Shown in pieces: positions 1 through 25,118 of a stretch of DNA of 34,525 nt. Under the pieces are notes generated by a model. The model saw only the letters and a program-made list of their open reading frames with translations, did not search any database and was not told where the DNA came from. The position numbers and the translations under genes are program-made. Position 1 is the stretch's first letter, and the number at the start of each line of letters is the position of its first letter. Source of the stretch: an uncultured Archangium sp. (GTDB lineage Bacteria > Myxococcota > Myxococcia > Myxococcales > Myxococcaceae); NCBI GenBank assembly GCA_903905455.1, contig CAIVGN010000200.1:1-34525 (forward strand), written 5' to 3'.

Positions 1-1752
1 ACCCGGCAGAACCTCCGCGTCGTCGACTGGCGCGTGGCCCCGGTGGCGCAGCTCTTCTACCGCTACAAGGAAGGCGACCCCTTCGAGGAGCAGTTCCCCG
101 GCCGCCTGGCCACCGGCACCGTCACCCTGCGGCGGGTGGTGGTGATCCACCAGGGCAAGCTGGTGCAGCTCATCGGCGACGACTTCGCGCTGTTCCGCGA
201 CGCCGACGGCACGTGGAAGTCGCGCGGAGCCACCGTGCTGGCCACCGGAGGCGCGGGCACCTCGGCGCGGGATGGGCAGCTGGGCGTCAGCGTGGGCGCG
301 CAGGCCAAGGGCACGCGGGTCGACGTCACGGCGTTGCTCGACGCCGAGCAGTACGCGGCCATCTCCGCGCCGCCCGACGAGCCGTTGCTGGTGCTGGGCA
401 GCGCCGGCTCGGGCAAGACGACCGTCGCGTTGCACCGCCTCGCGCGGCTGACCGTCGGCGATCCGCAGCGCATTCCGCTGGTGCGGGCGCGGGTGGTGGT
501 GCCGGAGGTGGGCCTCTCGCGGCTCGCCCAGCGGCTGCTCGCCCCGCTGCTCCCCGCGCCGGAGAAGGACGACGACGTGGGGCCGGAGATCGTCTTCACC
601 CTGGACGACTACCTCATGCGCCTCTCGCGGCGCGCCTTCGGCCAGTTGCCGCGCGTGAACTTCGAGCCGCCGGCCCTGGTGACCGCCGTGAAGCGGCACC
701 CGGCGCTGTACGACCTGCTCCGCGAAGCGGTGGAGGGCGAGAAGCCGGTGAAGCTCGAGGTCAAGCCGATGTGGCGCCAGCTCGCGCTGTTCCTCTCGGA
801 CTCGGCGTTCCTCGCGAAGGTGGTGGCGGCCGCGGGTGGCACGCTGCCCAGCACGGCCATCGCCGACACCATCGAGCACACCTCGATGCAGCTGCAGACC
901 CCGTTCAGCGCGCGGGACATCAGCGATCCCTCGATGCGCACGTCGATCGACGGGCTGGGGCTCAACGAGGGCACGCCGGACGAGATCGCCGGGTCCATCG
1001 ACGTGGAGGACCTGCCTCTGTTGCTCTCGATGCTCTCGTGGCGTCGCTCGCTGGCGTTGCCCCAGGCCTCGCACGTGGTGCTCGACGAGGCGGAGGACTT
1101 CTCGCTCTTCGACCTGGAGACGATCCGCGCCACCACGCGGGAGTTCAAGGGCCTCACCATCGCCGGTGACGAGGCGCAGCAGACGCACACCTCGTTCGCC
1201 GGGTGGCCGCGCAGCCTGGAGGTGGTGGGCGCGCAGGGGGCGGGCACGGTGCGGCTGACCACGAGCTACCGGTGCCCCCGGCCGATCGCCGAGCTGGCGC
1301 GGCAGGTGCTCGGGCCGCTCGCGCCTCCCACGCCGGCGAAGGCGTCACGGGAAGGCGTGCCGGTGGGCCGCTTCCACTTCCCTGGCGAGGCCGCGGCACA
1401 CCTGTTCCTCGCCGGCGCGTTGAAGGACCTGCTCGACGAGGAGCCGCACGCGACGGTGGCGGTGATCACCTCGACGCCCGAGGGTGCGCGCCGGTTCTTC
1501 CCGTTGATCGAGAGCCTGCAGCACACGCGGCTGGTGCAACGCGGCGAGTTCCCCTTCACCCCGGGCATCGACGTGACCGACGTCGACTCGGTCAAGGGCC
1601 TCGAGTGGGATTACGTGGTGGTCGCCGACGCGAGCGCGATGAACTGGCCGGGCACCGATGAAGGGCGCCGTCGCCTGCACGTGGCGGTGACTCGCGCGTC
1701 GCACCAGCTGTGGCTGGTCAGCCCGGGGACGCCCACGCCGCTCATCGGGTGA
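1..1752 (+). CDS. HelD-like superfamily 1 helicase/ATPase, 5' end outside window
   Basis: The frame is open from base 1, so the N-terminus lies upstream. The visible part starts with the VVDWR..PVAQLFY block typical of HelD-type (helicase IV/RNA polymerase-recycling) UvrD-family ATPases. Motifs then follow in order: Walker A GSAGSGKTT (near visible residue 133), Walker B LDEAEDFS, motif III AGDEAQQTH, motif IV TTSYRCPRP, motif V VDSVKGLEWDYVVV and motif VI HVAVTRASHQLW. The second acid of the usual DEAQ box is followed by Glu (DEAE). Known family role: HelD ATPases displace or recycle stalled RNA polymerase, or act as DNA helicases; which applies here cannot be told. The stop (TGA 1750-1752) sits five bases before a tandem repeat array, so nothing is co-transcribed downstream. 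The family is clear; the precise function is less so. Confidence 0.85.
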   Translation, partial: TRQNLRVVDWRVAPVAQLFYRYKEGDPFEEQFPGRLATGTVTLRRVVVIHQGKLVQLIGDDFALFRDADGTWKSRGATVLATGGAGTSARDGQLGVSVGAQAKGTRVDVTALLDAEQYAAISAPPDEPLLVLGSAGSGKTTVALHRLARLTVGDPQRIPLVRARVVVPEVGLSRLAQRLLAPLLPAPEKDDDVGPEIVFTLDDYLMRLSRRAFGQLPRVNFEPPALVTAVKRHPALYDLLREAVEGEKPVKLEVKPMWRQLALFLSDSAFLAKVVAAAGGTLPSTAIADTIEHTSMQLQTPFSARDISDPSMRTSIDGLGLNEGTPDEIAGSIDVEDLPLLLSMLSWRRSLALPQASHVVLDEAEDFSLFDLETIRATTREFKGLTIAGDEAQQTHTSFAGWPRSLEVVGAQGAGTVRLTTSYRCPRPIAELARQVLGPLAPPTPAKASREGVPVGRFHFPGEAAAHLFLAGALKDLLDEEPHATVAVITSTPEGARRFFPLIESLQHTRLVQRGEFPFTPGIDVTDVDSVKGLEWDYVVVADASAMNWPGTDEGRRRLHVAVTRASHQLWLVSPGTPTPLIG

Positions 1753-7717: not shown

Positions 7718-7872
7718 TCAGCGTGCGTCGGGCAGCGCCGCATATGCCGTGGCGAGCGCCGAGGGTGCCGAAGCAGTCAGCCCGCGTCCGGCAGCGCCGC
7801 GTACGCCATGACGAGCGCCGAGGGGGCCGAAGCGGTCAGCCCGCGTCGGGCAGCGCCGCGTAGGCCGTGGCG
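7718..7872. repeat. 59-bp tandem repeat, 2.6 copies, overlapping the 3' end of a gene
   Basis: Copies start at 7718, 7777 and 7836. Each begins with TCA (TGA on the minus strand) and then the sequence that encodes the last residues of the lipoprotein gene ending at 7836 (AYAALPDAG). Copy 3 is the functional end; copies 1 and 2 are downstream duplicates with several substitutions each. The period is exactly 59 bp. Confidence 0.85.
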
Positions 7873-8357
7873 TCGAAGCCGGCGCAGGTGCCGGCGTCGC
7901 CGATCTCGAAGCGGTTGACCACCGGGGCCAGGGTGCTGGCGTTGCTCGTCGGCACCGCGGTGTTGACCCGCGCGTCGATGAAGACGCCCGCGTCGTCGTC
8001 GGTGGGCAGCCCCACCTCGAAGAAGTAGTCGCGAGGCGAGAAGGGCACGCAGGCGGTGACCAGCCAGGCGCCGCCGTCAGGCCGGCTCATCGCGAAGCGC
8101 TGGGCCCCGAAGACGAGCGTGGCCTCGAGCTCGAGGTCCGCGGCCGGGACGGCGAAAGCCACCGCGCAACAGTCGGGGTCGAAGTGGGCGCTGCCGTCGA
8201 GGTCCTTGCTCGGCGCGTCGATGTTCCCCATGGAGGTGGAGGGCGCGGGGTCGATCACCCCCGGCGTGGGTGCGGGGCGGGTGATGAGGTCGGGGGCCGG
8301 CGTCGGCGCGGGCGCGCAGGCGGTGAGGGCCAGCATGAGCAGGGCGAGCTTCTTCAT
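7836..8357 (-). CDS. Small lipoprotein, last gene of the surface operon
   Basis: A 173-residue protein. MKKLALLMLALTAC is a lipoprotein signal with Cys14 as the lipidation site, followed by a Pro/Ala/Thr linker. The mature part has a Cys-Cys pair (DPDCCAVAF), two more cysteines (TACVPF and TCAGF) and a predicted beta-rich core. The pattern VLVFG..FAMSR, WLVTACVPF, YFFEVGL resembles an Ig/CBM48-like fold, but no family is certain. I chose ATG 8357, not a more distal start, because it gives the signal peptide and overlaps the upstream stop by ATGA, implying translational coupling. Its 3' end lies within a 59-bp tandem repeat. Function unknown. Confidence 0.8.
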   Translation of the reverse strand: MKKLALLMLALTACAPAPTPAPDLITRPAPTPGVIDPAPSTSMGNIDAPSKDLDGSAHFDPDCCAVAFAVPAADLELEATLVFGAQRFAMSRPDGGAWLVTACVPFSPRDYFFEVGLPTDDDAGVFIDARVNTAVPTSNASTLAPVVNRFEIGDAGTCAGFDATAYAALPDAG

Positions 8358-10273
8358 CGGAGCACCTCGGCGATCTCGTCCCGCGTCAGCACGCGCGCGA
8401 ACTCGTTGAACAGCGAGGTCCGGTGCTTCCGCTCGAAGAGCGCCTGGGCCTTGAGCGCCTCGCGGACCTGGGGTTGCCGGGCCACCTGGCTCTGCGAGAC
8501 CAGCCGCACGATGTGGCGCCTGGTCATGACCGACTGCTCGGTCTTCAAGTCGATCAGCGCCTGCTCGACCAGCGCCGGGCTCGCGCCCACACCGACGTCG
8601 AGCTGCTGGCGCTGAATGACCGAGTACAGGGCCTTGCGGACGAAGGGGTCCTTCTCGCGGCGCAGCCAATCGATCTCCATCGCGTCGGCGTCGGCGGGCG
8701 GCATGCGGGAGAGCGCCTTCGCGGCGGCCTTTCGGGTGTCGGCGTCGGGCGAGCTCGCGTGGGTGGCCACCAGGGGCAGCGTGGACGGTTCGCCCATGTT
8801 CCCCACCGCGGCCAGCGCGACCTTGCGCGTCTGCGGATCGGCCTCGCTCTGCAGCACGCTCTCCAGCGCCTGGCGCGAGGTGCGCGTCACCTGCGCGTCG
8901 TCGCGCGAGCCGCTCATGGTCGACAGGGCGAGCATCGACTCGCCCGCCAGGAAGCGCCCCTCCTCGGTGCGGCGACCGAGCTGCCGCGTGACGTCGGCGC
9001 GGAACTCCTCGGCGAGCGCGGGGCCCACGTCCTCGCGCACCACCAGCGCGAACATCGAGCGCACCTGGTCCAGGCCGGGGGCCGCGTCGTCTCGCTTGAT
9101 GCCCAGCAGCGCGTCCCGGGCCTCCGGCACGCGCGCCTTGCCCAGCGCGAGGAAGAAGTCGCCGGCCGACGACACGGGCAGGCCACCTGCCTGGTAGCGC
9201 TTGATCGCGGGGCCGATGGCCTCGGGGTGCACCTCGAAGTAGGCCGACAGCTCGGGCCAGGTCGACTGGATGCCCACCCGCTGCTTGCTGCGCTCGGCGA
9301 ACTGGTCCATCGCCTGCTCGGTCGTCAGCGCGCGCACCTTGTCCTGCCGCGCCTTGTCGTACGACGTGAACGGCCGTGACACGAGCTCGTGGCGCCGGCG
9401 GGGGAGCAGGTTTTCCCAGGCGTACTTCGTGACGTCTTGCTCATCGGCGCTGAAGGCGACCTCGTCCGTCGCGAGTCGCACGAAGCTCGTCCGCGAATCC
9501 GACTTCGTCTCGCCGAAGCTGAAGCGCTCCTGCGTCTCGAGGCGCGCGAACCACAGCCCACCGAGCTCGACCACCAGCGAGCCGCGGGTGAGCACGTCGG
9601 TGTCGTCCTCGTTCCAGAGCGCCTGGTAGCGATCCAGCGTGCGGCGCAGGCGCCCGCTGCCTTCCGGAGCGAGGAGCCCCTCGGCCACGCCGTTGCCGTT
9701 CTGCACCTGCACCGGCGTCGCCGCGTCGACCACGCGAAACTGGGCTTCCCAGACCAGGGCCTGCTGGTTGCGCGCGGCCGTTCGAGGGGCCGTGTCCCGT
9801 CGCGCGAACCGGGTCAGGCCACACTGGGCGTCGACCTCGAAGAGGAACGGCGCCGCCATCGGCTGGGTGTCCATCGCCGCCTCGGGCATCGCGGCCAACG
9901 ACGCGAGCCGGCCGACCCACACGGTGGCGTGCTCGTTCGCGTCGACGGCCTGGGCCTGCAGCACCGCGTGCACCGTGAGGTCCATGGAGATGGGGGTGGG
10001 CGACCCCGGCACCCGCTGCGTGGCGGAAGACTCGAGGTCCACCGAGAAGGCCAGGCGCTGCCCCGGGCTGAAGTGACACGGAGCGTCCTTCCGGGCGTCC
10101 GCCGAGGGCTGCGGTGCGGTCCTCGCGTCCTGCGGCGGGGTCACGTCGGTGGCGCTGGCGGGCGCGGGCGGGGCGTCGTCGCGGCCCCAGAGGAGGGAAG
10201 CCCCCACCAGGGCCCCGAGCCCGAGGACCCCGGTCACGCCCAAAGCAGTCTTCGAAAATCGGCTGGAGGTCAT
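8354..10273 (-). CDS. Membrane-anchored HEAT-repeat protein with vitellogenin-like layout
   Basis: A 639-residue protein. Residues 9-30 form one hydrophobic signal-anchor (ALGVTGVLGLGALVGASLLW), followed by a Pro/Ala/Asp linker. Residues about 65-270 look beta-rich, beginning CHFSPGQRLAFSVDL, with later segments PFLFEVDAQCGL and RNQQALVWEAQF. Residues about 310-635 are alpha-helical with HEAT-like repeats (VALAAVGNMGEPSTLPLVA, AAKALSRM, VRKALYSVIQ). A beta module followed by a helical superhelix is the arrangement of the vitellogenin/large lipid transfer protein N-terminus; that comparison is my inference from order and pattern, not a search. It follows the lectin-like gene by 3 bp and overlaps the next gene by ATGA. 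It probably faces the periplasm. Confidence 0.8.
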   Translation of the reverse strand: MTSSRFSKTALGVTGVLGLGALVGASLLWGRDDAPPAPASATDVTPPQDARTAPQPSADARKDAPCHFSPGQRLAFSVDLESSATQRVPGSPTPISMDLTVHAVLQAQAVDANEHATVWVGRLASLAAMPEAAMDTQPMAAPFLFEVDAQCGLTRFARRDTAPRTAARNQQALVWEAQFRVVDAATPVQVQNGNGVAEGLLAPEGSGRLRRTLDRYQALWNEDDTDVLTRGSLVVELGGLWFARLETQERFSFGETKSDSRTSFVRLATDEVAFSADEQDVTKYAWENLLPRRRHELVSRPFTSYDKARQDKVRALTTEQAMDQFAERSKQRVGIQSTWPELSAYFEVHPEAIGPAIKRYQAGGLPVSSAGDFFLALGKARVPEARDALLGIKRDDAAPGLDQVRSMFALVVREDVGPALAEEFRADVTRQLGRRTEEGRFLAGESMLALSTMSGSRDDAQVTRTSRQALESVLQSEADPQTRKVALAAVGNMGEPSTLPLVATHASSPDADTRKAAAKALSRMPPADADAMEIDWLRREKDPFVRKALYSVIQRQQLDVGVGASPALVEQALIDLKTEQSVMTRRHIVRLVSQSQVARQPQVREALKAQALFERKHRTSLFNEFARVLTRDEIAEVLR

Positions 10274-10276
10274 GAG

Positions 10277-13200
10277 TCAGTCCTTCTGGAAAGCATGTTC
10301 CCACTTCGTGAGGGTGCCCTCGCCGACCTTGAACCCCTCGTATTCCAGCAGGGTGTACGAGATGTCGAAGAAGGGGAGCACCAGCTTGATCTCGAGCGCA
10401 CCCGTCAGGAGCGACACGCTCCAGTCGACCCGCAGCTCGAGCTTGCTCTTCACGCGGGAACGGCCCGTGTTGTCCTTGAGCGTCGTGTGTTGGTAGGCGA
10501 TGAGCGGCTTGATGCTCGCCTCGAGCAGGTTGACGGAGCCCTCGAGGCAGATGCCGAAGTCGGACGACGGGGTGCAGAAGCCCACGCTGAAGCCGGCCGA
10601 GAAGCCCGCGTTGATGGTGATGCTGGCCTTGTGGGACACGCCGCTGGTCACCAACTGCCGGTTGCAGACCGACTTGAAGGAGTCGCTCATCTTCTGCAGG
10701 GCGAAGTTGTTGCCGCGCATGGTGACGGCGCTGTCCACCGGCGTGTGGATGGCGGCCGTGGTGGCGGTCACCGCGGCGCCGCCGAGCGTGGTCGTGGTGC
10801 TCGGGTTCACGAAGGCGCCGAAGCCGGTGGCCTTCCCGAAGGTGGCCGCGTCGGACAGCCAGCGCATGAACTGCTTGTGCTCGGGACCGCAGGCCGTCGA
10901 GTTCCAGGAGGTCGCGCAGTTCGAGTTCTCTTTGTACTCGTTGCCGATCTGCCCGCCGACCCAGATCTCCTCGGTGGCGGCGATGGCGGCGTGCATCGCG
11001 CTGAACTGGGTATCGTCGCGGGGCTCGAGGAGCGTGCCGCCCATGAAGTAGCAGGTGTCGCGCGCCTGGCGGAACGGCATCGCGGGCAGCGCGAGGTTCG
11101 CGTCGGGGCACGTCTCGGAGGAGATGCCACCGCCGGCCGGCTGCACCGCGCAGCTCGACTGCACGCGCGGGTTGAACTCGTGCTCGAGCTCGACGCCCAC
11201 CCCGGCGCCGGCGCCCAGGCCGAACACCAGGTCGCCCTGGATGGGGCCGAAGCGCAGCGGCACCTTGAACTCGAACTGCACGCTGAGCCCGCTGACGCCG
11301 ACGGTGACGCGGCCCGACTCGATGTCGAAGAAGGGCCCCGGCTTGGGGAAGAGCGCGGCGATGGCGCCGTAGTTGGGGCTGATGGTGAGGGTCGTCTTCA
11401 CCGCGCCGATGGAGCCGTCCTTCACCGCCTCGAGCACGTTGAAGCCCAGCAGGTTGAAGCTGGTGGAGAACGTGTCGGTGGTGTCGGTCTCGTCCTCTTC
11501 GTTCTCGATGAGGATCACCGTCTTCTTCGCGGGGTTGTCGCTGCCCCCCAGGCCGTTGCTCACCATGGTGGTGCAGTGGGAGCCCACGCACATGCGGTCG
11601 GTGTCGGCATCGAAGGTGGCCGAGAGCCGGTCCTCGCCGCTGGTGGTGGGCTCGAGCTCGGTGACGTTGCCGTCGCCGACCTCGACCTCGGGGATGGGGG
11701 TGACGACGTTCTCACCGCGGAAGGCGAACACCGCGCTGCGGGCGCAGCCGTTGGACGCGATCCTGAGCGGGGGGGCGTCCGTCGGGGAGCGCAGGAAGTC
11801 GTTCTGCAACGCCTGGGTCTCGAGGTTGAACATGCGCAGCTTGTTGGTGGGGCACACCTGCAGCACGTAGTTGCGGGTTCCACCGGGGACCAGGGGGTAC
11901 GTGGGGTGGGTGAAGAGGGCGGTGCGCACCGCGGCGGTGATGGGCACGTGCAGGTCGGTGGTGGTGCCGCTCTCGTTCATCACTCCGCTCACCAGGACGT
12001 TGAGCTTCGCGCCGGGGAGGCCGATGACGCCGCTCTCGTCCACGGCGACCTCGCCGTTGGCGTCCTTCACCGAGGTGTCGGGCACGGGGACCAGGCCCGT
12101 CCTGGGCCGTGGGACCAGGCCACCGCTGTAGGCATCGAGGGACAGGGACATGCGGCCGAAGACCTCGTCGGTCCAGCGGTACCTGCCCACCTCGAGCATC
12201 AGCTTGGCCCACGCGGGCTGACCCGGGCCCGACAGGGCGAGCGTCAGGTCTGCGGCGATCTCCCCCCTGGGCCGACCGGCCTTGTTCACGAGGTACTCGA
12301 GGTCGCGCACGTTGACCTGGCGCACGCCGATGAGGGTGTCAGGGCCGGCGTTGATGCTCACGGCCATCTCGGTCCGGTCCCTGTTCTGGTTGGCGGGGAT
12401 GGTGCCCGAGTGGATCACCTTCAGCGGGTTCTGGGAGTAGTAGTCGAAGGCCCGGTGCACCTTGGTGGCGTGGTTGAAGAAGAGGTCGAGCGGGCGGGTG
12501 TTGCAGGTGCTGTCGATGCTGGTGCCCTGGACCTCGAGAATGGCCTTGTCATCGAGGTCGTAGGAGGCGCGCAGCGTGGTGGGCACCTGCTCGGGGAAGC
12601 CCGCCTCGCCCAGGGTGGCGAGATCGTAGCCCGCGGCCGCCCAGCCGGCTCGAATGGCGTTCTTCAGGGGATCGAGGTCACGGCACGACTGGGGGATGCG
12701 GTACTCCTCGACGAAGTCGATGCGCTTCTTTCCGCCGGCGTCCACGGGCGTGTACTTGCCCAGGTCGATGGTGCCGACGAGGCAGCGGAAGATGTCGAGC
12801 GGGGGGCCGTCTTTGGGCGCGGGCACGCGACTGCTCATCCACAACGTCACGTTCTGCTTGAGCGGCCCGGTCGAGGTGACGGAGCCCTTGAACTGGTAGA
12901 GCTGCGCGTCATCGAAGCGCAGGCCGGGCGTGGCCCCGGGGACATAGGCGGAGCCAGCGAGCGTCTCCGGGGGGTGCAGCGGCCGGGTGACCTCGTTGAG
13001 GCGCAGCTCCACGCCCTCGAGCTTCTCGACCTGCTTCACGTAGTCGGGCGCGCAGTCGAGCAGGCGATCGCGCCGGGTGTGGCCGTAGCAGTTCTCAGGG
13101 ACGCAGGCGGTGTGCACCTCTTCTTCGGTGGGCAGGCACTCGATGGGCTGCGGCACCCACCGCTCCTGGTACCCGACCTTCACGACGTCTGGTTTGAAGG

Positions 13201-13666
13201 AGCAGGTGTACTCGAAGCGGATCGTGTACCCGCTGTAGGCCTCCTCCGCATATGCCTTGCAGTACGTGCCGACGTTCTCGACGCGGCAGCTGGTCTTGCC
13301 GTCACAGCGCTCGGCCATCAGCGAGGTGATGGGCACGCCGCCGTCGTGATTGGTAATCACCCCGTCCTGGGTTCGGCCCTGGGGCCACGAGATGGTCGCG
13401 AAGGTGTTTTGGGTGCGGCCCCAGAGGCAGTTCGCCGAAGTCACCTTCATCAGGTTCTTCTTGTCGGGCGTGGTGCTCACGTAGCCGTTCTCGGTGCCAA
13501 TCTGAGACACGGCCTGCGCGGTGCGTGGGTTCACCTTGGGGATGTAGGTGAACGGGACCTTGCCCCCGGGGCAGCTCGTCGCGTCGAGGGCCGACTGGCT
13601 CTTCGAGTCGACCGGGGCCTGACAGGCGGCCAGGGCGAAGCACAACAGCGTCACTGACTTCTTCAT
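10277..13666 (-). CDS. Large lipoprotein with SUEL-like and C-type lectin-like domains
   Basis: A 1129-residue protein. MKKSVTLLCFALAAC is a lipoprotein signal. Residues about 75-157 resemble a galactose-binding SUEL-type lectin: CLWGR, ERCDGKTSCRVENVG and IRFEYTC give the Cys and Gly spacing. Residues about 865-955 resemble a C-type lectin-like domain: ARDTCYFMGGTLLEP, EEIWVGGQIGN, then two cysteines and FMRWL. Between them is a long beta-rich region of unknown family. The C-terminus (about 1050-1125) is beta-rich with alternating hydrophobics (LEIKLVLPFFDISYTLLEY). ATG 13666 was chosen because it gives the lipobox and an ATGA overlap with the upstream gene. Likely on the outer membrane or exported; the ligand is unknown. 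Confidence 0.82.
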   Translation of the reverse strand: MKKSVTLLCFALAACQAPVDSKSQSALDATSCPGGKVPFTYIPKVNPRTAQAVSQIGTENGYVSTTPDKKNLMKVTSANCLWGRTQNTFATISWPQGRTQDGVITNHDGGVPITSLMAERCDGKTSCRVENVGTYCKAYAEEAYSGYTIRFEYTCSFKPDVVKVGYQERWVPQPIECLPTEEEVHTACVPENCYGHTRRDRLLDCAPDYVKQVEKLEGVELRLNEVTRPLHPPETLAGSAYVPGATPGLRFDDAQLYQFKGSVTSTGPLKQNVTLWMSSRVPAPKDGPPLDIFRCLVGTIDLGKYTPVDAGGKKRIDFVEEYRIPQSCRDLDPLKNAIRAGWAAAGYDLATLGEAGFPEQVPTTLRASYDLDDKAILEVQGTSIDSTCNTRPLDLFFNHATKVHRAFDYYSQNPLKVIHSGTIPANQNRDRTEMAVSINAGPDTLIGVRQVNVRDLEYLVNKAGRPRGEIAADLTLALSGPGQPAWAKLMLEVGRYRWTDEVFGRMSLSLDAYSGGLVPRPRTGLVPVPDTSVKDANGEVAVDESGVIGLPGAKLNVLVSGVMNESGTTTDLHVPITAAVRTALFTHPTYPLVPGGTRNYVLQVCPTNKLRMFNLETQALQNDFLRSPTDAPPLRIASNGCARSAVFAFRGENVVTPIPEVEVGDGNVTELEPTTSGEDRLSATFDADTDRMCVGSHCTTMVSNGLGGSDNPAKKTVILIENEEDETDTTDTFSTSFNLLGFNVLEAVKDGSIGAVKTTLTISPNYGAIAALFPKPGPFFDIESGRVTVGVSGLSVQFEFKVPLRFGPIQGDLVFGLGAGAGVGVELEHEFNPRVQSSCAVQPAGGGISSETCPDANLALPAMPFRQARDTCYFMGGTLLEPRDDTQFSAMHAAIAATEEIWVGGQIGNEYKENSNCATSWNSTACGPEHKQFMRWLSDAATFGKATGFGAFVNPSTTTTLGGAAVTATTAAIHTPVDSAVTMRGNNFALQKMSDSFKSVCNRQLVTSGVSHKASITINAGFSAGFSVGFCTPSSDFGICLEGSVNLLEASIKPLIAYQHTTLKDNTGRSRVKSKLELRVDWSVSLLTGALEIKLVLPFFDISYTLLEYEGFKVGEGTLTKWEHAFQKD

Positions 13667-16600
13667 GGCAAGCACCTCAGGACGACGCACCCATTGCCAG
13701 ACGTACCCACACCCACCGCTTTGCCAGCCTGCGAGCAGGTCGCGACGTCCTGGAAGTCGTGGAGCGCGGTGCCCCCCGGGTTTCCGCTGACGTCTCCCAC
13801 CTCGGCGGCCAGGCCCGAGGGCACGGCGCCGAAGGTGCCGCCGGCGCCCGGAGCGCCATTGACGCCGGCCAGGCCGCCGTCGAAGCCGGCGCCGCCTCCG
13901 CCGGAGGTCGAGAACTGCGGGGCGGATTCACCGGCCGACGTCGAGTTTCCACCGGCGCCGGCGCCACCCGCGGGATCGGCCGGCTGCGTGGTGCCGCCAC
14001 CGCCTCCCCCGGGCACGCTCGAGGCCCACACGAGGACGTCGTTGGCCTCGGTGTACTTGAGGCTGGTGAGGCCGCCGCCGCTCCCGCCGCTGGAGGCGTT
14101 GAACATGCCGTCGCCGCCGCCGCCGTTGGCCGCGGTGCCCACCCAGGAGCCGATGCCGACGCCGGGCGTGGTCGAGGTGGCCGTGTCGCCCGCGGCGCCC
14201 ACCCAGACCACGAACTTCTGGCCCGCGGTGACGTTGAGCACACCGCCGACGAAGCCGCCGGCGCCGCCCGCATTGGCGAGCCCGGGGCCCATGAAGACCT
14301 GCTGCGCGCCCGGACCGCCAGCGGCGCCCCAGGCCGAAACGTGGAGCTGGGGGCAGCTCGCGGGCACGGTGAAGGTGCCGGAGGGCGTCACGCCGTCGGC
14401 CGTGGGCGTGCGGGCGAGGAACCGGCCGGCGCCGCAGTGGCCCGAGTTGCCGGTGCAGTTGCCGGAGTTGTCACCGCAGTAGCAGTCGCTGGAGGTGCAG
14501 TCGGAGTCGAGGGTGCACGCCGGGCCAGAGCCCGCGTCGACGGTGCCGGCATCGGGTGGCCCTGCGTCGGGGGGCCCCGCGTCGATTCCGGCGTCGACGC
14601 CCGCGTCGGTCCCGGCATCGGTGCCGGCGTCAGGCGGCTCGAGTCGCTCGCAGGTGCAGGTCATGGAGGCGACGACCTCGGTCGCCATGGGCATCGGCCC
14701 GGCGTTGGCGCCGACCAGGACGCACTCGGAGCGGTAGCGGGACGGCGCGGGCATCTGGAGCGCCGCGATGCGGGTCTGGTCGATGGTGTTGTATTGGTAG
14801 CGCGTCTGCACGACGGTCGCGGCGCTCACCGAGAAGGCATACGCCGACCCTCCGTCGTAGGTCTGGCCGGGCACGAACTCGAGGCCTTCCCAGACGCCGT
14901 TGGTCTGGTTGGGCCGCGAGGACGAGTCGAGGAGGCCGATGGTGGGGTTCCAGCCCACCAGGGTCCGGACGGCGGGATTGGTGGAGCTGACGGTGACGGT
15001 GGGGAGCGTCCAGTCGAGGATCTGTTCCCACACCCGGACCCCGGCATCTCGGGGGGTCACCTCGCGGTCCCCGCCCGCGCAGGCCCCGAGGGCCTTGTAC
15101 TTCACGTCGAACTTCCGCGCGGTGCACCGCACGGTGTTGGTCTGTGCCGTGGGCGTGCCCGTGGGGGTGTAGGTCCAGTCTCCCGAGCCGCCGGTGTCGA
15201 AGGTGCACGTGTAGTTGTCGCTCGACGGGTTCCTGAAGACGAAGCGGCCCACCGCTTCGAACTGCCAGGTGGGCGACGTCGCGAACGCGGTGCCCCGGTA
15301 CACGGGGCTCGCCTCGTCGTCCGTGGCGTAGATGGCCGAGGCCCCGTAGCCGCCGAGGCCGACGTAGTTGAGGGTGTGGAGCTTTTGGGCGCTGCAGGTG
15401 AGCCCCGCGTCGGCGCCCACGCACTTGAGGCCGGTCTGGCAGCGGTTGGGCGACGCGCAGCTTCCCCCGACAGGGCAGTCGCAGTAGCCGCCGCAGTCGG
15501 TGCTCGTCTCCCGGGTGTTGAGGCGTCCGTCCCGACAGCTCTGATCGGCGCAGGCCCCCTGAAAGCAGTCGCCCGCGTTCGCGTAGCCCGGCGCGGCGCA
15601 GTCGTTGCTGGCGCCGCAGCGTTTGGGGATGGCGCAGCGGCCGTCCCCGAACTTCTCGTCCTGCAGGTTGCAGAAGCCGCCGCAGTCGACGTCGGTCTCC
15701 ATGGGGTCCTTCTTGCCGTTCTTGCACGTCGCGTAGTTGACGCTGGTGCTGACCTCGGTCGCGCCGGTCATGGTGTTGATGGTGAAGGCCGCGTCGTTGC
15801 CGCCGGAGGTGGTGCCCTGGGCGACGGTGGTCGAGGAGACGCCTTCGGAGGTGGTGGTGGTGGTGATGACCGCCACGTGCGTGGTGCCGGTGGTGACGTC
15901 GGCGGTGACCTTGACGTTGTTGGGGTCCGACGCGTCGATGGTGACGCCGTTGGTCTTGGCGTCGACGGTCACCGTCACCGTGGTCTGGCTGCCGTCGGCG
16001 TTCTTGGTGGTGGTGCTGATGGTGGTGCCCCCGTCGCCGATGGAGTTGAAGCTGACCGTCTTCGCCGTGGGGTCGACGGTGATGGCCCCGGCGCCGCTCG
16101 AGCCCTCGACCTTGGCCGACACCGTGGGGCTCGTGGCGTACACCGCGCCCGCGTCGGCGCTCACCGAGATGGTCATGGGCGCGGAGCCTTTGATCATCAC
16201 GTTGGTGATTCCCGAGGGAGCCTTGCAGAAGCAGTCCGAGGCGCCGGGAAGCAGCGTGCCGCCCGCCTCGACCAGCTGGCCGTCCTTGAAGCCCACCAGC
16301 GTGCCGTCGCCTTCACCCTGCACGAGCAAGGTGCCGTTGGCGGCAGACACGGTGAAGCCCTCCACGAAGGGCGGCGTGAGCTGGCCCAGGCGCGGCGTGA
16401 CCGGGGAGAAGTAGAGGAGATTCCCGTTCTGCGTGGTGCCTTCGTACAGGCGCGGGAACTCGGGGTTGGGCGAACCCTCGTAGCGCCACGAGTTGTCGCG
16501 CACGTTGAGTTCGATGCGCCGCTCCTCGGCGGGGAAGTTGCTGTCGTAGATGCGAAGGAAGTACTGCCCGGGCTCGGTGCCCTTGAAGTACCCGAAGGGC

Positions 16601-17208
16601 ACGACGGCGTGACCCGCGTGGAAGCCGCTCTCGTCCCTCTGGGCGATGAGGAGCCGCCAGCGCTCAGAGGTGTCGGGGAGGGACTTGGCGAGGAAGGCGA
16701 TGACCTCCGAGGCCTGGAGCTTCTTGTCGCCGGCGTGCACCGCCTGCATCTTCTGGGTGGCCGACCAGTAGGCGAGCTCGGCCCTGAGCCCGGGGGTGTT
16801 GAGTTGGAGCGCCGCCGCCGTATCGCCCCCGAAGTCCGCCGAGGCTACGCGCCCCATGGACATCAGCTGCGCCAGCACCGCGAGGCCTTCGGAGTGACCG
16901 AAGTGCAGCGTCTGGTTCATCTCTTCGATCCACGCCGCGGCCGCGTCGTTCGGCACGCACGTCGAGCCCGCGCCGCTGCGGCACACGCTCGCGTCGCCGA
17001 ACATGCGCGCGGCCAGTGCGGGGCTCATCTGGGCCCCGCTCACCGAGTCGTCGAAGTTGGCGAAAGTGAAAGCGTCTCGCTCGAAGTCGAAGGCGCTGTT
17101 CACTGCGTCCGGAACCTGGGGCGTACAGCCGAGCACCGCAAAACTCGCGGCGAGACAGGCCTGCAGCAGTGATTTCAGGGTCTTCCCCGTCGTCGGTTTG
17201 CGGGTCAT
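13663..17208 (-). CDS. Large multidomain surface lipoprotein, first gene of the surface operon
   Basis: A 1181-residue protein. Signal to Cys28 (AASFAVLGC). Residues about 85-245 resemble a papain-like fold seen in secreted bacterial proteins: HSEGLAVLAQ, DFGG, LAYWSATQ, AGHAVVPFGY, LRIYDSN, SWRYEG. The usual catalytic Cys position is Ser106, while His200 and Asp222/Asn224 remain. Residues about 330-490 are a Thr/Val-rich stalk. Two Cys-rich modules follow, each with an ETDVDCGG or ETSTDCGG motif. After a beta-rich region comes a run of Asp-Ala-Gly repeats (near 14520-14640), and the C-terminal 250 residues are Gly-rich (WGAAGGPG, AGGAGGFVGG). Adhesin-like architecture typical of myxobacteria. 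It heads a four-gene coupled operon, with a promoter just upstream. Confidence 0.85.
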   Translation of the reverse strand: MTRKPTTGKTLKSLLQACLAASFAVLGCTPQVPDAVNSAFDFERDAFTFANFDDSVSGAQMSPALAARMFGDASVCRSGAGSTCVPNDAAAAWIEEMNQTLHFGHSEGLAVLAQLMSMGRVASADFGGDTAAALQLNTPGLRAELAYWSATQKMQAVHAGDKKLQASEVIAFLAKSLPDTSERWRLLIAQRDESGFHAGHAVVPFGYFKGTEPGQYFLRIYDSNFPAEERRIELNVRDNSWRYEGSPNPEFPRLYEGTTQNGNLLYFSPVTPRLGQLTPPFVEGFTVSAANGTLLVQGEGDGTLVGFKDGQLVEAGGTLLPGASDCFCKAPSGITNVMIKGSAPMTISVSADAGAVYATSPTVSAKVEGSSGAGAITVDPTAKTVSFNSIGDGGTTISTTTKNADGSQTTVTVTVDAKTNGVTIDASDPNNVKVTADVTTGTTHVAVITTTTTSEGVSSTTVAQGTTSGGNDAAFTINTMTGATEVSTSVNYATCKNGKKDPMETDVDCGGFCNLQDEKFGDGRCAIPKRCGASNDCAAPGYANAGDCFQGACADQSCRDGRLNTRETSTDCGGYCDCPVGGSCASPNRCQTGLKCVGADAGLTCSAQKLHTLNYVGLGGYGASAIYATDDEASPVYRGTAFATSPTWQFEAVGRFVFRNPSSDNYTCTFDTGGSGDWTYTPTGTPTAQTNTVRCTARKFDVKYKALGACAGGDREVTPRDAGVRVWEQILDWTLPTVTVSSTNPAVRTLVGWNPTIGLLDSSSRPNQTNGVWEGLEFVPGQTYDGGSAYAFSVSAATVVQTRYQYNTIDQTRIAALQMPAPSRYRSECVLVGANAGPMPMATEVVASMTCTCERLEPPDAGTDAGTDAGVDAGIDAGPPDAGPPDAGTVDAGSGPACTLDSDCTSSDCYCGDNSGNCTGNSGHCGAGRFLARTPTADGVTPSGTFTVPASCPQLHVSAWGAAGGPGAQQVFMGPGLANAGGAGGFVGGVLNVTAGQKFVVWVGAAGDTATSTTPGVGIGSWVGTAANGGGGDGMFNASSGGSGGGLTSLKYTEANDVLVWASSVPGGGGGGTTQPADPAGGAGAGGNSTSAGESAPQFSTSGGGGAGFDGGLAGVNGAPGAGGTFGAVPSGLAAEVGDVSGNPGGTALHDFQDVATCSQAGKAVGVGTSGNGCVVLRCLP

Positions 17209-17317: not shown

Positions 17318-17947
17318 CTACCGGAGCACGAGCTCCACGCGGCGGTTCCGGGTGCGGCCCGCTTCGCCGGAGTTGTTGCGCACCGGGCTGAACGGCCCCA
17401 CGCCCTGGGCCTCGAGCCGATCGGCCGCGATGCCGTGGGTCTTCACCAGGGCGGCCACCACCGCCCCGGCGCGATCGCGGGAGAGCTGCAGGTTGTGCGG
17501 CACGTTCCCGACCATGTCGGTGTGGCCCACGATGAAGACCCGCGCGGTGGGGTTCTGGCCGAGCCACCGGGCCATCTCTGCCAACGAGGGAGCCGACTCG
17601 GCCTTGAGCACCGCGGAGTCGGTGTCGAAGTAGAGCCCGTAGAAGGCGACCCTTCCCTCCTCGGCCATGCCCGCGGCGATCTGGCCGGCCTTGACCACCA
17701 CGGACTGCTGGAGGGCGGCGACCCGGACGACCCGGTTGAAGATCGAGTTGCACTGGTCGCCGGTGCTGCCTCCGCAGCCCGAGTTGCCCCACCACTCACC
17801 GTCGTCGCGCACGAGCCGGAAGGAGATGCGGCCCCCGCCTTCGTCGACATAGAGGACGGTGCCCTTCGCAGCCAGGACGGCGTTCTCGAAGTTGCGGCGC
17901 ACCTCGAGCTTGCCCGGCTTCTTGCCGTCGGCCCCCCTGGGGAGCAC
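17318..17947 (-). CDS. OmpA-family C-terminal domain protein, 5' end apparently lost
   Basis: From GTG 17947 it is 209 residues. The C-terminal half is an OmpA/Pal peptidoglycan-binding domain: VAFYGLYFDTDSAVL, VGHTDMVGN, LSRDRAGAVV and GRTRNRRVEL, with the Asp and Arg that contact diaminopimelate. The homologous sequence continues upstream of this start: in frame to 18145 one reads SRPLFSPFPGTRLDTCERAKF, typical of the region just after the signal peptide in this family. An in-frame TGA (18146-18148) then closes the frame with no ATG, GTG or TTG and no signal peptide. The family is a periplasmic/outer membrane protein, so this copy is probably a 5'-truncated pseudogene beside the exporter gene. 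The internal GTG would give an untargeted product. Confidence 0.7.
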   Translation of the reverse strand: MLPRGADGKKPGKLEVRRNFENAVLAAKGTVLYVDEGGGRISFRLVRDDGEWWGNSGCGGSTGDQCNSIFNRVVRVAALQQSVVVKAGQIAAGMAEEGRVAFYGLYFDTDSAVLKAESAPSLAEMARWLGQNPTARVFIVGHTDMVGNVPHNLQLSRDRAGAVVAALVKTHGIAADRLEAQGVGPFSPVRNNSGEAGRTRNRRVELVLR

Positions 17948-18159
17948 CTCGATCGAGTACCAGGTCTCGCCCTCCTTCTTGAAGCGCTCGACGCCATCGC
18001 GGGGCCGCGCCGGATCGCGCCAGCGGGTCAGGTCGATGGCGGCGAACTTCGCGCGCTCGCAGGTGTCGAGCCGGGTCCCGGGGAACGGGCTGAAGAGGGG
18101 GCGTGAGTCTACCCGACCCGGCGCCCACCCCGCCTCGCCGCGAAGTCACGGCGCGCCGC

Positions 18160-20403
18160 TCAGGTGCCGCGCGGCGCCGAGAGCGGAGAGAGCAGCCACA
18201 CCAGCGTGACGCCCACCCCGAGCGTGATGCCGAAGGCGTGGATCGCCGGGGTGCTGGAGACCGCGAGCAAGCCGAAGGACAGCAAGGTGCTCACCGCGCC
18301 CAGGCCGATGGCCAGCCAGGCCTCGCCGCCGTCAGCCGGGTGCTCGATGAGGAAGATGCCGTAGTCCACGCCCATGCCCAGCAGCAGCCACAGCGCGAGT
18401 ATGTGGAAGAGCGTGAGCGGCTCCCCGAGGAAGCCCACGGTGGCCAAGGCGAGGCCCGAGGCCACGGCCGTGGGGAGCAGCGCGCGCCAGGCCCGGCCCC
18501 GGAAACGCCAGGAGAGCGCGGCGAAGATCACCGCGTAGCCCGCGAACATCAGCTGGCTCATGCCGATGCGCCAGCGCTGCATGAGCGCGGAGATGTCACC
18601 GGTGCGATCGACGAAGCGCACGCCGGGCAGCGAGCCGAGCGCCGCGAGCGTGGGCAGCGACTCCTTCGTGGGCGCGTGGAGCAGCACCACGCTGGCGTCC
18701 TTCATCCACAGCGGGCGCAGGGCGTCGCCGAGCTGCGTGGCGAGCACGTCGTCCACCGTCAACGGCGGCGTGGCGAGGGTGACCGGCGTGGGGTCCTCGA
18801 GCTCGTCGGCGAGCGCGGTGAGGATCGACTGGCGGGTGGTGTCGAAGAGTTCGTGCTGCCGCCGCTGGCGCTCAGGGGAAGGCACCCAGTTGGAGACCGC
18901 GTCGTAGCCGGTCAGCAGCTTGCCGGGGACCAGCGCGTCGAGCTGCGTGGTGAGGTGCTCTTCGCGCTCGAGGCGTTCGGCTTCGGTTGCTCCGCGCACG
19001 ATGAAGAACTGCGCCGGGCTGGGGAGGCCGATGCGCTCGGCGACCGTGCGCTGCGCGTCGATGAGGGCCTGCGGGCTCGCCTGCAACGCCCGGATGTCGT
19101 CTTGCGCGTGGAGCCGGGAGAAGCCCCAGGCCGTCACCAGCGAACTGCAGAGCACGGCGATCGCCAGTTGCTTCAGCGAGAGGGACGGCCAGCGGGACCG
19201 GGTCGCCGCCCAGGCAGCCGCGAAGCGCGTGGGCTTCACGACGCCGCGATCGAAGAAGGGGAACCACGCGAGCACCGTGAGGAACGCCGCCGCGAGGCCG
19301 ACCGATGAGAACAGCGCCACCTGCCGCAGCCCGGGGAACGGCGCGAGCGCCAACATCACGTAGCCCGCGACGCTGGTGAGCATCGCCAGGAAGAGGCCCG
19401 GGGTGTGGTGCGTGAGCAGCTCGCGCGGGGAGAGGTTCGGCTCTGCCTGGCGCGAGGCGAAGTAGTGGATGCCGTAGTCCTCCGCTACGCCGACCAGCGA
19501 GGCCCCGAAGACCAACGTCATCAGGTGCACCTTGCCGAAGACCAGCACGCAGACGGACAGGCCCGCCGCGACGCCCATGCCCACCGAGAGCACCACCAGC
19601 AGCAACGGCCGCGGGGAACGGAAGGCCAGCCACATCACGAGGAGGATCGCCGCCAGCGAGCCGAAGCCCACGGTGCTCACCTCGGCGTTCGCCTGCACCG
19701 CCGCGGCCTCCGCGAAAAGGGGGACTCCGGCGGGGAGCACCTCGGTGGTGGACGGGAGATCGCGCTTCGCCGTGGTCAGCGCGGTCGCGAGGTGCGCTAC
19801 GCCGTCGAGCGAGAAGGCGCCCCCGAGGACCTTGTAGCGGAGCAAGACGTGGTGCCCCGCGGTGGTCTCGAAGACCAGGTGATCGCCCTCGGGCCGGAGC
19901 TTGGTGACCTGCGCTCGCTCGCGCAGGTACTCCGAGTACAGGTCGAGCGGGTCTTCGCGGAAGTCGGTGAGGCGCGCACCGAGCGGCTGCTGGAGCTGGA
20001 GGATCGCTCGCTGGGTCAGGTCCTGCGGCGTGGTGGCGGTGAGGCGATCGACCTGGTTGCGCGTGAGCAGGTACTCGCGCCACGGGGCGAGCTGGTCGGG
20101 GAGCGAGGTCGCGTTGGGGTTGGAGGTGAGGCGCGCGAGCTTCGGGCTCTCAAGCTGGCTCGCGAACTGCGTCGCCGAGGCCAGGGCTTCGGCCTTGGTG
20201 GGCGCGGTGATTAGCACCACCAGGTTGCGCGAGGTCTCCTCGCTCAGGTGATGGAGGACCTCTTCAGCCGCCGTGTCCCGGGTGTCCGAGGGCAGGAGGG
20301 TGAGGAGATCGGTCTCGATGGGCAGGCCCGTCGTCCAGAGGAAGGACTGGTGCGCGAGCACGAGCGCGCCGATGAGCGTCCAGAGGAGCGGGAGGCGGGA
20401 CAA
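18160..20403 (-). CDS. MMPL/RND-type exporter of the APE-like operon
   Basis: A 747-residue protein with the duplicated MMPL plan. There is an N-terminal transmembrane helix, a periplasmic loop (about 30-240), six helices with the signature FGASLVGVAEDYGIHY (about 300), a second loop (about 430-610) and six more helices with LGMGVDYGIFLIEHP. The Asp residues in VAEDYG and GVDYG are the proton-relay positions of this superfamily. In aryl-polyene loci this exporter (COG4258 type) is thought to move the lipid-linked pigment or its precursor. It lies 4 bp after the lolA-like stop. Fourteen bases after its stop is the end of the truncated ompA frame, where known APE loci instead continue with lipoprotein and ketosynthase genes. 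Confidence 0.9.
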   Translation of the reverse strand: MSRLPLLWTLIGALVLAHQSFLWTTGLPIETDLLTLLPSDTRDTAAEEVLHHLSEETSRNLVVLITAPTKAEALASATQFASQLESPKLARLTSNPNATSLPDQLAPWREYLLTRNQVDRLTATTPQDLTQRAILQLQQPLGARLTDFREDPLDLYSEYLRERAQVTKLRPEGDHLVFETTAGHHVLLRYKVLGGAFSLDGVAHLATALTTAKRDLPSTTEVLPAGVPLFAEAAAVQANAEVSTVGFGSLAAILLVMWLAFRSPRPLLLVVLSVGMGVAAGLSVCVLVFGKVHLMTLVFGASLVGVAEDYGIHYFASRQAEPNLSPRELLTHHTPGLFLAMLTSVAGYVMLALAPFPGLRQVALFSSVGLAAAFLTVLAWFPFFDRGVVKPTRFAAAWAATRSRWPSLSLKQLAIAVLCSSLVTAWGFSRLHAQDDIRALQASPQALIDAQRTVAERIGLPSPAQFFIVRGATEAERLEREEHLTTQLDALVPGKLLTGYDAVSNWVPSPERQRRQHELFDTTRQSILTALADELEDPTPVTLATPPLTVDDVLATQLGDALRPLWMKDASVVLLHAPTKESLPTLAALGSLPGVRFVDRTGDISALMQRWRIGMSQLMFAGYAVIFAALSWRFRGRAWRALLPTAVASGLALATVGFLGEPLTLFHILALWLLLGMGVDYGIFLIEHPADGGEAWLAIGLGAVSTLLSFGLLAVSSTPAIHAFGITLGVGVTLVWLLSPLSAPRGT

Positions 20404-20407
20404 GGCG

Positions 20408-20956
20408 CTACTTCGCCTCGGCCGGGCTGAGGGTGATCAGGGTCGAGTCGCCGCTGATTTCCTGGAGCCGCACCTCGCGCACCGAGTCGTCTCCCTGGAG
20501 CGTGATGCGCGCGAAGACCTTCTTGAGGCCGTCCGACTTCGGGGTCAGCTCGATGTGCCAGCCCTTCGCGGTGACCTCGCCGGTCGAGGTGAAGTGCTCT
20601 GACAGCGCGCCGAGGTCTCCCGCGAGGAGCGAGAAGAGGAGCTGGGTGATCACCCGCACCGTGGGCTCGGTCTTCGCGTCGAGCTTGAAGACCTCCTTGT
20701 CGCCCTGCTTCGAGGTGATGTCGCCAGCGCGAACCGTGAGCTCGCTGGGGAACGGCTTGAGGGTGTTCCACTGCACGCCCTCGCCCTTCGTCACCGTGTA
20801 CGTGCCGCTCGACTTGAGGGGCCGCTTGAAGCCCTTGACCTGCTTGCCCTGCTCGAAGGTGCCGGAGATCACCTGCGCCTCGTGGAGCCGGGCCTTCACC
20901 TGCGAGGCGAGGTCCCCGGGCGCCGCGAGGGCGAGGAGGAGCAGCAGGTGGATCAC
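20408..20956 (-). CDS. LolA-like outer membrane lipoprotein carrier
   Basis: A 182-residue protein with a short signal peptide (IHLLLLLALAAPG) and then a LolA-type fold: LHEAQVISGTFEQGKQVKGF, KSSGTYTV, GVQWNTLKPFPSELTV and a C-terminal strand ITLQGDDSVREVRLQE. Known family role: periplasmic shuttling of lipoproteins on an open beta-barrel. The APE-locus version is believed to carry the lipid-linked product toward the outer membrane, with the MMPL exporter. GTG 20956 overlaps the thioesterase stop (GTGA). It is one of two export components here. It is unlikely to be the housekeeping LolA, given its context and divergence. Confidence 0.87.
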   Translation of the reverse strand: MIHLLLLLALAAPGDLASQVKARLHEAQVISGTFEQGKQVKGFKRPLKSSGTYTVTKGEGVQWNTLKPFPSELTVRAGDITSKQGDKEVFKLDAKTEPTVRVITQLLFSLLAGDLGALSEHFTSTGEVTAKGWHIELTPKSDGLKKVFARITLQGDDSVREVRLQEISGDSTLITLSPAEAK

Positions 20957-21366
20957 GGGCTGACTCCCAGCTTGTCCCAGAGGATCTGAGGGCAGACGTA
21001 CTGGAGCTCGTTGGTGGCGATGGTCACCGCCACCTGCAGCGTGTGCCCCTCGGTCACCTTCTCGCCCGTCAGGGCGTTGGTGATGCGGTAGTCGACGCGG
21101 AGCCGGTTCTCGAACTCGGTGATCTCGGCGCGCACCGTGAGGCGCTGACCGAGCATCGCCGGCCGGCGGAACTTGATGGCCACGTCGATGATCGGCCAGA
21201 AGTAGCCCGAGTCGCGCATCTGCAGGTAGTCGTAGCCGAGGCGCTCCATGAGGGCCGCGCGCGCCAGCTCGAAGTACTTCACGTAGTGCCCGTGCCAGAC
21301 GACCGCCATGGGGTCGACGTCGTAGAAGGCAGGACGCACTTCGATCTCGTGAAAGAGGTCAGGCAC
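20953..21366 (-). CDS. Acyl-ACP/CoA thioesterase, 4HBT hot-dog fold
   Basis: From GTG 21366 it is 137 residues. The hot-dog signature YDVDPMAVVWHGHYVKYFE holds the Asp and the HGHY/YFE pattern of YbgC/4-hydroxybenzoyl-CoA thioesterases, followed by IKFRRPAMLGQRLTVRAEI. I chose GTG 21366 over a longer start at 21417 because the extra residues are low-complexity and lie inside the acyltransferase frame. GTG 21366 gives an 8-bp overlap with that gene, like its neighbours. The likely role is release or editing of acyl chains from the carrier proteins in this operon. The family is sure; the substrate is inferred. Confidence 0.88.
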   Translation of the reverse strand: MPDLFHEIEVRPAFYDVDPMAVVWHGHYVKYFELARAALMERLGYDYLQMRDSGYFWPIIDVAIKFRRPAMLGQRLTVRAEITEFENRLRVDYRITNALTGEKVTEGHTLQVAVTIATNELQYVCPQILWDKLGVSP

Positions 21367-22282
21367 GCGGCGGCTCCCAGAAGGGGAAGAAGTTGAACCA
21401 GTCGTAGGGCGATTCACGGCAGAGTTGCTCGAGTTTCTGCGCGTACTGCGTGACGTACACGGCCGCCGCGGCCTCGCGCTTGCCTCGCGGGAGCTCGACG
21501 CGGTCGGTCAGCTTCTCGAAGCGCACCCGGTAGGTGTCCTCTTCGTGGAGCACGGTGAAGAGGATCACCTGGCACTTGAGCGCGGAGGCGAGGATCCACG
21601 GGCCGATGGGGAAGTACGCCTGGGCCCCGAGGAACGGCGCGGCCACGGTGCGCCCCGACGAGTCGGAGAGCGGCACGCGGTCGGCGGCGATGACCACGAA
21701 TTCCCCGGCGTCGACCTTCTCGGACAACATGGCCGCGGTGGAGGGCGCAAAGTCGGTGACCTGCAGCAGCTTGACCTGGGAGTGCGGGTCGAGGCGCTTG
21801 AGCATCGAGTTGAAGACCTCGGCGTGCTGGGTGTGCACCAGGACGTTGAGCTTCGGCCCGTCCTTGCGCTCGGCGGCGAGGCGACAGACCTCGAGGCAGC
21901 CCATGTGCGCGGTGACCAGCACCCCGCCCTTCTTCTGGGCCATCGACTCGAGCATCACCTCGCGCCCGGTGAAGCGGATGCGGTGAAACGGGTAGCGCCC
22001 GGCGACCGCGAGCGTCTTGTCCATGATCGTCTCGGCGAACGCCGTGATGTGCCGGAAGGTGGTCAGCCACGTGGGCTGGAGTCCCAGCTTGAGGAAGTAT
22101 TCACGGGAGGCCGCGCGCGCGAGGCGGTGCCTGGCCACGTAGAACAGGACCACCGGCGCCAGGGCCACGCGGAACGGCCAACGCCCGAAGAAACGGTGGA
22201 TGAAATAGAGCAGCCACAGGCCGAAGGCGAAGCCACCCTCGGCCACGCTCGCCCAGTGCGTGCTGCGCACCGGCCCGCTCAT
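21359..22282 (-). CDS. LpxL-type lauroyl/myristoyl acyltransferase family protein
   Basis: A 307-residue protein. N-terminal hydrophobic segments (FAFGLWLLYFIHRFFG and the next helix) anchor it to the inner membrane. The HX4E catalytic motif is in VTAHMGCLEVCRLA (about 130), and FLGAQAYFPIGPWILA is the downstream family block. Known members acylate lipid A. In APE loci the homologue is thought to attach the polyene acyl chain to a lipid or sugar acceptor. In several known loci this domain is fused to the glycosyltransferase; here they are separate genes joined by an ATGA overlap. ATG 22282 was chosen for that overlap. Confidence 0.88.
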   Translation of the reverse strand: MSGPVRSTHWASVAEGGFAFGLWLLYFIHRFFGRWPFRVALAPVVLFYVARHRLARAASREYFLKLGLQPTWLTTFRHITAFAETIMDKTLAVAGRYPFHRIRFTGREVMLESMAQKKGGVLVTAHMGCLEVCRLAAERKDGPKLNVLVHTQHAEVFNSMLKRLDPHSQVKLLQVTDFAPSTAAMLSEKVDAGEFVVIAADRVPLSDSSGRTVAAPFLGAQAYFPIGPWILASALKCQVILFTVLHEEDTYRVRFEKLTDRVELPRGKREAAAAVYVTQYAQKLEQLCRESPYDWFNFFPFWEPPRA

Positions 22283-23007
22283 CTCGCGACCTTGCGCCAC
22301 AGGAGCTTCGGCAGGCGCAGCAACATCCCGAAGAACAGCCGGGTGTGCATGCCGGAGATGCGCACGTTGTCCCAGAGCACGTCGAAGTGGCTCACGCCGT
22401 CGGTGGGGTACGTGACGTGGGTCGGGAGGTTCACCACCTCGGCCCCGCCCCACACGAGGCGCACGGCGATCTCGGGGTCGAAGTCCATGCGCTTGCCGAT
22501 GGAGGGCACGAGGGCGCGCAGGGTGCGCTCGAGCGGGTAGACCCGGAAGCCGCACATCGAGTCCTTGATCGCCAGGGAGAGCGTGTTGATCCACACCCAG
22601 ACGTGCGTGAGGTAGCGGCCGTAGAGGCGGCCCTTCGGCACCGAGTCGTCGTACTGCGGCACGCCGGTGATCAACGCGTCGGGGTGCGCGGTGGCCTGGG
22701 CGAGGAACGTGGGGAGATCGCCCAGCGCGTGCTGGCCGTCGGCGTCGATCTGCACCGCGTGGGTGAAGCCGAGCCGCTTCGCCTCGTGCAATCCCGACAT
22801 CACTGCCGCGCCCTTGCCGCCGTTCTCGGTGCGGCGAAAGAGCGAGACCCCGGGCTGCTGGGCCAGCGCATCGAGCACCGTCGCGCACGAAGGCTTGCTG
22901 CCGTCGTCGACCAGCAGCACCGGCAGCCCGTGGGCCTTCACCTGCTCGACCACCGCGGCGATGGCGTGCTCGTGGTTGAACACCGGGATGACGACGACTG
23001 GCTTCAT
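22279..23007 (-). CDS. Family 2 glycosyltransferase
   Basis: A 242-residue GT-A protein. MKPVVVIPVFNHE is the first strand of GT2, LLVDDGSKP is the nucleotide-binding Asp motif, and QIDADGQHALGDL contains the metal-binding DxD-like site. There are no strong membrane helices beyond a weak C-terminal patch (RLFFGMLLRLPKLL). The product is likely an undecaprenyl- or lipid-linked sugar transfer in the APE-like pathway (inference from context). ATG 23007 was preferred because longer frames lose family similarity and this start overlaps the ligase stop by ATGA. The gene downstream (the acyltransferase) overlaps the same way. Confidence 0.88.
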   Translation of the reverse strand: MKPVVVIPVFNHEHAIAAVVEQVKAHGLPVLLVDDGSKPSCATVLDALAQQPGVSLFRRTENGGKGAAVMSGLHEAKRLGFTHAVQIDADGQHALGDLPTFLAQATAHPDALITGVPQYDDSVPKGRLYGRYLTHVWVWINTLSLAIKDSMCGFRVYPLERTLRALVPSIGKRMDFDPEIAVRLVWGGAEVVNLPTHVTYPTDGVSHFDVLWDNVRISGMHTRLFFGMLLRLPKLLWRKVAR

Positions 23008-25105: not shown

Positions 25106-25118
25106 GACGTCCCGCGGG

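Follow-up and report, generated by a model that had tools for sequence, protein, structure and literature searches.

To our knowledge, work on the large lipid transfer proteins (LLTPs: vitellogenin, apoB and the microsomal triglyceride transfer protein, MTP) has been confined almost wholly to animals. Lipid handling is what the LLTP fold is known for; MTP in addition acts as a chaperone of apoB, and its N-terminal half lies in the ER lumen. The C-terminal beta sheet of MTP is the seat of lipid-binding and transfer activity (PMC3337244). A bacterial LLTP was not found described in the open literature, subscription papers being outside our search. The present analysis concerns P3, the product of the third gene of a four-gene operon in an uncultured Archangium sp., and MTP is its best fold match. 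Both proteins have a barrel followed by a helical superhelix, with domains of similar size and order. P3 differs from MTP in being bacterial and signal-anchored, and its chain has no C-terminal lipid sheet; a beta module whose fold is unproven is instead encoded by a separate gene, that of its partner. With vitellogenin/lipovitellin and apoB, P3 shares the fold of the N-terminal module, and the Vitellogenin_N domain is recognized in its relatives. Unlike them, it has neither fused lipid sheets nor a vWD domain and is not a protein of a circulating particle. The Lpt, Mla, AsmA-like and Lol systems presumably have a role in common with this locus, the passage of hydrophobic cargo across the envelope, but this is an inference, and no Pfam match to these families was found in P1 to P4.

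What is new here is the pairing of P3-type proteins with a conserved amphipathic beta-strand module across the Myxococcota. The most far-reaching interpretation, to which we assign a probability of roughly 0.4, is that this pair is a widespread, undescribed split LLTP that binds and moves lipid, a counterpart of MTP and apoB and possibly a relative by descent. A lipid-handling machine regarded as typical of animals may thus exist in bacteria too, in two pieces. A paired bacterial system with an LLTP N-terminal module would provide an outgroup for the origin of the LLTPs, making that origin testable in culturable myxobacteria, and a simple two-gene model of a barrel/helical module acting on an amphipathic beta sheet. 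It would also be a candidate new route by which lipids or lipoproteins travel in the envelope of myxobacteria.

The DNA analyzed (the window) is the whole of a 34,525-nt contig (C200) from an 8.6-Mb genome. Inspection of the open reading frames placed P1, P2, P3 and P4 consecutively on the minus strand (Table 1). The original prediction described these genes as coupled, and both ATGA overlaps and the short gap on which it relied were verified in the sequence. It had also called two large proteins and one small one lipoproteins; lipobox signal peptides were seen in all three (VLGC in P1, LAAC in P2 and LTAC in P4). P3, predicted to be membrane-anchored, indeed has a hydrophobic N-terminus with no lipobox and no clear cleavage site, followed by a Pro/Ala-rich linker. 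P2 starts with ATG, an alternative GTG lying at 13690. The open reading frame listed at 7836-8669 was rejected as P4 because it is too long. P4 belongs to no known family.

Table 1. Coordinates of the four genes, their junctions and their predicted domains in the window
Feature	Position	Strand	Basis or description
P1	13663..17208	-	lipoprotein, 1181 aa; N-terminal papain-like domain, middle part beta/Cys-rich, C-terminal part glycine-rich
P1 papain-like domain	16339..17031	-	motif alignment
P1 glycine-rich C-terminal region	13666..14436	-	DUF5122 repeats instead in subgroup B
ATGA overlap P1/P2	13663..13666	-	sequence
P2	10277..13666	-	lipoprotein: Ig-like beta domains, lectin-like domains, C-terminal beta module
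P2 SUEL-lectin-like region	13196..13453	-	residues 80-165, weak; several copies in long P2 variants
P2 beta module, first half	11162..11488	-	hhalign to partner module
P2 C-type-lectin-like domain	10652..11161	-	residues 844-1013, inserted in beta module
P2 beta module, second half	10280..10657	-	long amphipathic strands
3-bp gap P2/P3	10274..10276	-	sequence
P3	8354..10273	-	639 aa, membrane-anchored, LLTP-N-like (beta barrel + HEAT)
P3 N-terminal membrane anchor	10169..10273	-	signal anchor without lipobox; common to family
P3 beta-barrel domain	9416..10078	-	residues 66-286; one central helix
P3 helical superhelix	8360..9364	-	residues 304-638, about twenty helices
ATGA overlap P3/P4	8354..8357	-	sequence
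P4	7836..8357	-	173-aa lipoprotein; orthologues in cassettes

Directly upstream of the operon, at 17318-27171 on the minus strand, lies an aryl-polyene-like lipid biosynthesis cluster with genes for an OmpA lipoprotein, an MMPL exporter, a LolA-like protein, a 4HBT thioesterase, an AMP-ligase/ApeI dehydratase, an acyltransferase and a ketosynthase. A functional link between these genes and the operon was rejected since they are absent beside other cassettes. An IS3-type transposase (rve, HTH_21) is encoded at 2601-3476 on the minus strand.

Conservation of the gene order, which had been proposed as a check, was found across Myxococcaceae metagenome-assembled genomes. The complete P1-P2-P3-P4 order was present at 15 loci, the window included, and four further loci showed a partial order or were cut at contig ends (the latter at L006/L057, L126 and L128). 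With P3 as the query against 60 related genomes we obtained 12 additional full-length relatives, and among 84,980 species genomes scanned 11 loci were found, of which two had not been seen before. All named relatives were metagenome-assembled genomes of Myxococcales, mainly Myxococcaceae or Archangium. The cassette often occurs twice per genome; in the window's own genome the second copy, on contig C204, has a P3 that is 49% identical. Because the genes flanking the cassettes differ between loci, the order is kept as a unit. Pairwise distances among the four genes were correlated (r 0.88-0.95, 11 loci), the permutation maxima being also high as a result of the small number of loci. The recurrent order, the differing flanks and the correlated distances together argue that the operon is not a product of chance.

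The AF2 model of P3 was confident (mean pLDDT 82.5) and places the beta domain at residues 73-286 and its internal helix at residues 164-175; C66 and C151 are near-invariant in the barrel domain. When the model was compared with the PDB by Foldseek, the best three matches were all human MTP, with E values of 1.8e-12 to 4e-10 over about 600-650 columns, and generic HEAT proteins came next from E 5e-4. Lipovitellin (1lsh) matched with a Z of 16.7 over 512 aligned residues (67..622, rmsd 12.7) and apoB with a Z of 16.7 (9bd8) or 16.5 (9bd1); among the matches listed (VIA), lipovitellin and apoB were the ones that covered both P3 domains. Pure HEAT repeats reach an equally high Z on the helical part alone, so that Z by itself is not decisive for this part. 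The TM-scores were low, about 0.3. A low TM-score and a high rmsd are compatible with a flexible superhelix and a different angle between the domains.

Sequence comparisons added to this picture. The original prediction proposed a match to Pfam Vitellogenin_N (PF01347) as a check; P3 itself did not reach the curated cut-off, while its relatives did. One of these, L043 (the same locus as L010), was found by blast, the alignment of P3 with L010 having an E of 2e-14 over 48-595. Sixteen of 17 more distant relatives matched the domain, in each case over the helical part only, and there were no matches in 14 control genomes. A profile of the 17 relatives aligned co-linearly with human MTP (a query identical to PDB 6i7s) over 376 columns, which take in some of the barrel, with a score of 37.8 compared with a mean of 14.3 and a maximum of 22.0 for 40 shuffles. 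The barrel alone scored 19.2, below the shuffle maximum of 20.5 and hence not significant, and a barrel-only sequence search gave no match. By its AF2 model, P3 fulfils one mark of an LLTP, an N-terminal barrel followed by a helical superhelix as in MTP, lipovitellin and apoB. Another mark, lipid-binding C/A beta sheets on the one polypeptide, is absent, since P3 stops after the helical domain. Judged from its modeled structure, P3 is related to the N-terminal module of LLTPs, a beta barrel joined to a helical superhelix, and the vitellogenin-type layout originally attributed to it is borne out.

The gene adjoining the distant P3 relatives almost always encodes a protein of 353 to 1460 aa that ends in a module of roughly 280 aa made of long strands. 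The N-terminus of these partners is variable and the C-terminal module constant. In 146 Myxococcota genomes we found 82 Vitellogenin_N hits and 102 module hits, and the module lay within 6 kb of 60 of the 82. The two were present in 44 and 52 genomes, 36 of them shared (Fisher p 2.6e-14, a value that ignores shared ancestry). A P3-type gene stood beside the module in 20 of 20 loci examined, nearly all picked as module hits without a Vitellogenin_N hit. Module and P3-type genes were immediate neighbors in 42 of 43 pairs, and in 34 both lay on one strand with the module gene upstream; many of these loci had been selected via one of the two genes, not both. Distances between module sequences and between P3-type sequences were correlated across 41 pairs (r 0.93, permutation maximum 0.27). 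What stands consistently beside members of the P3 family is a beta-strand module and not a lectin. Its strands are amphipathic (mean z about 4), which suggests a hydrophobic ligand. No match to the module was found in sequence searches of Pfam, NCBIfam and the PDB. Homology to the LLTP sheets is unsupported, with no sequence similarity to the C-terminal sheet of MTP (for which a provisional sequence was used) and no match by Foldseek of the low-confidence P2 model. A supposed 2778-aa fusion of the module with Vitellogenin_N (L113) was rejected since the module is in a different frame.

P2 itself carries this module. With the lectin domain removed, its C-terminus aligned to the module by hhalign in both halves (Prob 92%, E 6e-7, score 54), whereas shuffled sequences scored at most 17.8 and decoys at most 19. 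P2 and P3 of the window are consequently a more elaborate version of the pair seen elsewhere, the module again lying upstream. A structure search with the low-confidence model of the P2 C-terminus found no LLTP sheet. Matches of P2 to complement C3/C5, integrin and mastigoneme proteins were discarded as low-TM similarity of beta domains.

We give even odds to the proposal that P2 and P3 are the halves of a split LLTP-like system, with P1 and P4 as surface accessories of the same complex. P3 would be anchored in the inner membrane with its barrel and HEAT superhelix in the periplasm, much as MTP has its N-terminal half in the ER lumen; this location is inferred. There it would bind the C-terminal amphipathic beta module of P2; this contact is likewise inferred, from the near-obligate pairing and the co-divergence of the two proteins. 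P3 might then load P2 with lipid or another hydrophobic cargo, or chaperone it with such cargo, and the lipid-anchored, lectin-bearing P2 might carry or hold the cargo at the outer membrane or cell surface together with P1 and P4. The operon, the pairing and the homology of the modules are observed, as are the folds predicted for P3 and for the lectin domain within P2; the binding of lipid, its transfer and the direction of any transfer are inferred. As the module has not been shown to be related to the LLTP sheets, the main rival is a chaperone or export role without lipid, in which P3 is a scaffold in the periplasm that folds or hands over the sticky beta module of its partner and so brings large lectin-bearing lipoproteins to the surface. 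The near-obligate pairing and a variable N-terminus on a constant module would fit such a role, as would the signal anchors of P3 relatives and the export signals of many partners. It accords less well with a fold known for lipid handling and with a module whose amphipathic strands point to a hydrophobic ligand, although MTP does both, so that the one function does not have to rule out the other. We regard a purely lipid-free role as somewhat unlikely but still a real possibility.

The inserted domain of P2 has the fold of a C-type lectin, by structure (mannose-binding protein: Z 11.4, rmsd 2.5, 103 aligned) and by profile (E 3e-10), but differs from such lectins in being embedded in a beta module. 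The evidence for a SUEL lectin is weak: PF02140 was matched by 4 of 12 P2 members (best E 0.0016), the window P2 not among them, and CSL3 gave an E of 0.07. Of the lectin-like folds predicted for P2, the first is clear and the second weak. The predicted glycan binding is unsupported for the window P2 because its C-type lectin domain lacks the EPN/QPD and WND calcium/sugar motifs. Two partners elsewhere (L042, L043) have a C-type lectin at the N-terminus with EPN and WDD kept.

P1 has orthologues in all cassettes, and its relatives match Gly_rich_2 and ALK_LTK_GRD. Its papain-like domain is recognized by motif only, a profile search of the PDB having given no match. Relatives have GRCEG or GHCEG, GGHA and YDNN, while the window P1 has GHSEG, AGHA and YDSN; His and Asp/Asn are kept and Cys is replaced by Ser, as in window-type cassettes generally, so that the Cys-His-Asp/Asn catalytic set is incomplete. 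From these motifs, the window-type P1 probably lacks protease activity. The domain is also found by itself, with Cys intact (GHCEG/GRCEG), in proteins of 508-529 aa at four loci (L129, L132, L133 and L134). At L131:2274-10034 a P1-domain gene lies on the opposite strand beside a module/P3-type pair, a third kind of association.

These domains raise the alternative of a surface adhesin that binds glycans or recognizes prey, in which the lectin domains and the papain-like P1 are the active parts and P3 is a mere assembly factor. The C-type lectin fold, the SUEL-like repeats of long P2 variants, the glycine-rich or DUF5122 surface regions of P1 and the presence of predators in the bacterial family are in keeping with it. 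We consider it doubtful, given that the window P2 lacks the canonical sugar-binding motifs, the window P1 has Ser for Cys and a lectin match is missing from most pairs in the phylum. Least tenable, and in our judgment very improbable, is a convergent likeness, with P3 a common type of periplasmic HEAT scaffold to which an unrelated beta domain has been fused. In its favor, the TM-scores are low, HEAT superhelices match many proteins and the barrel has no significant sequence match. Against it, MTP outscores every HEAT protein by many orders of magnitude across 650 columns, barrel and helices follow the LLTP order and size, Vitellogenin_N is matched in the relatives and the MTP alignment is co-linear.

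Further module/P3-type pairs were seen in other settings. A third pair (932 and 619 aa) lies in the window's own genome, at L097:4281-9055. In two genomes, P3-type/module pairs lie near a kinase-nSTAND-FGE-sulfatase gene (L046:2835-6620 and L080). At L078:5570-13471, in a member of the Myxococcaceae, a dnaA-like gene next to a yidC-like region has a module/P3-type pair and another P3-type gene as its flanking neighbors, and similar genes occur on the dnaA side in several relatives.
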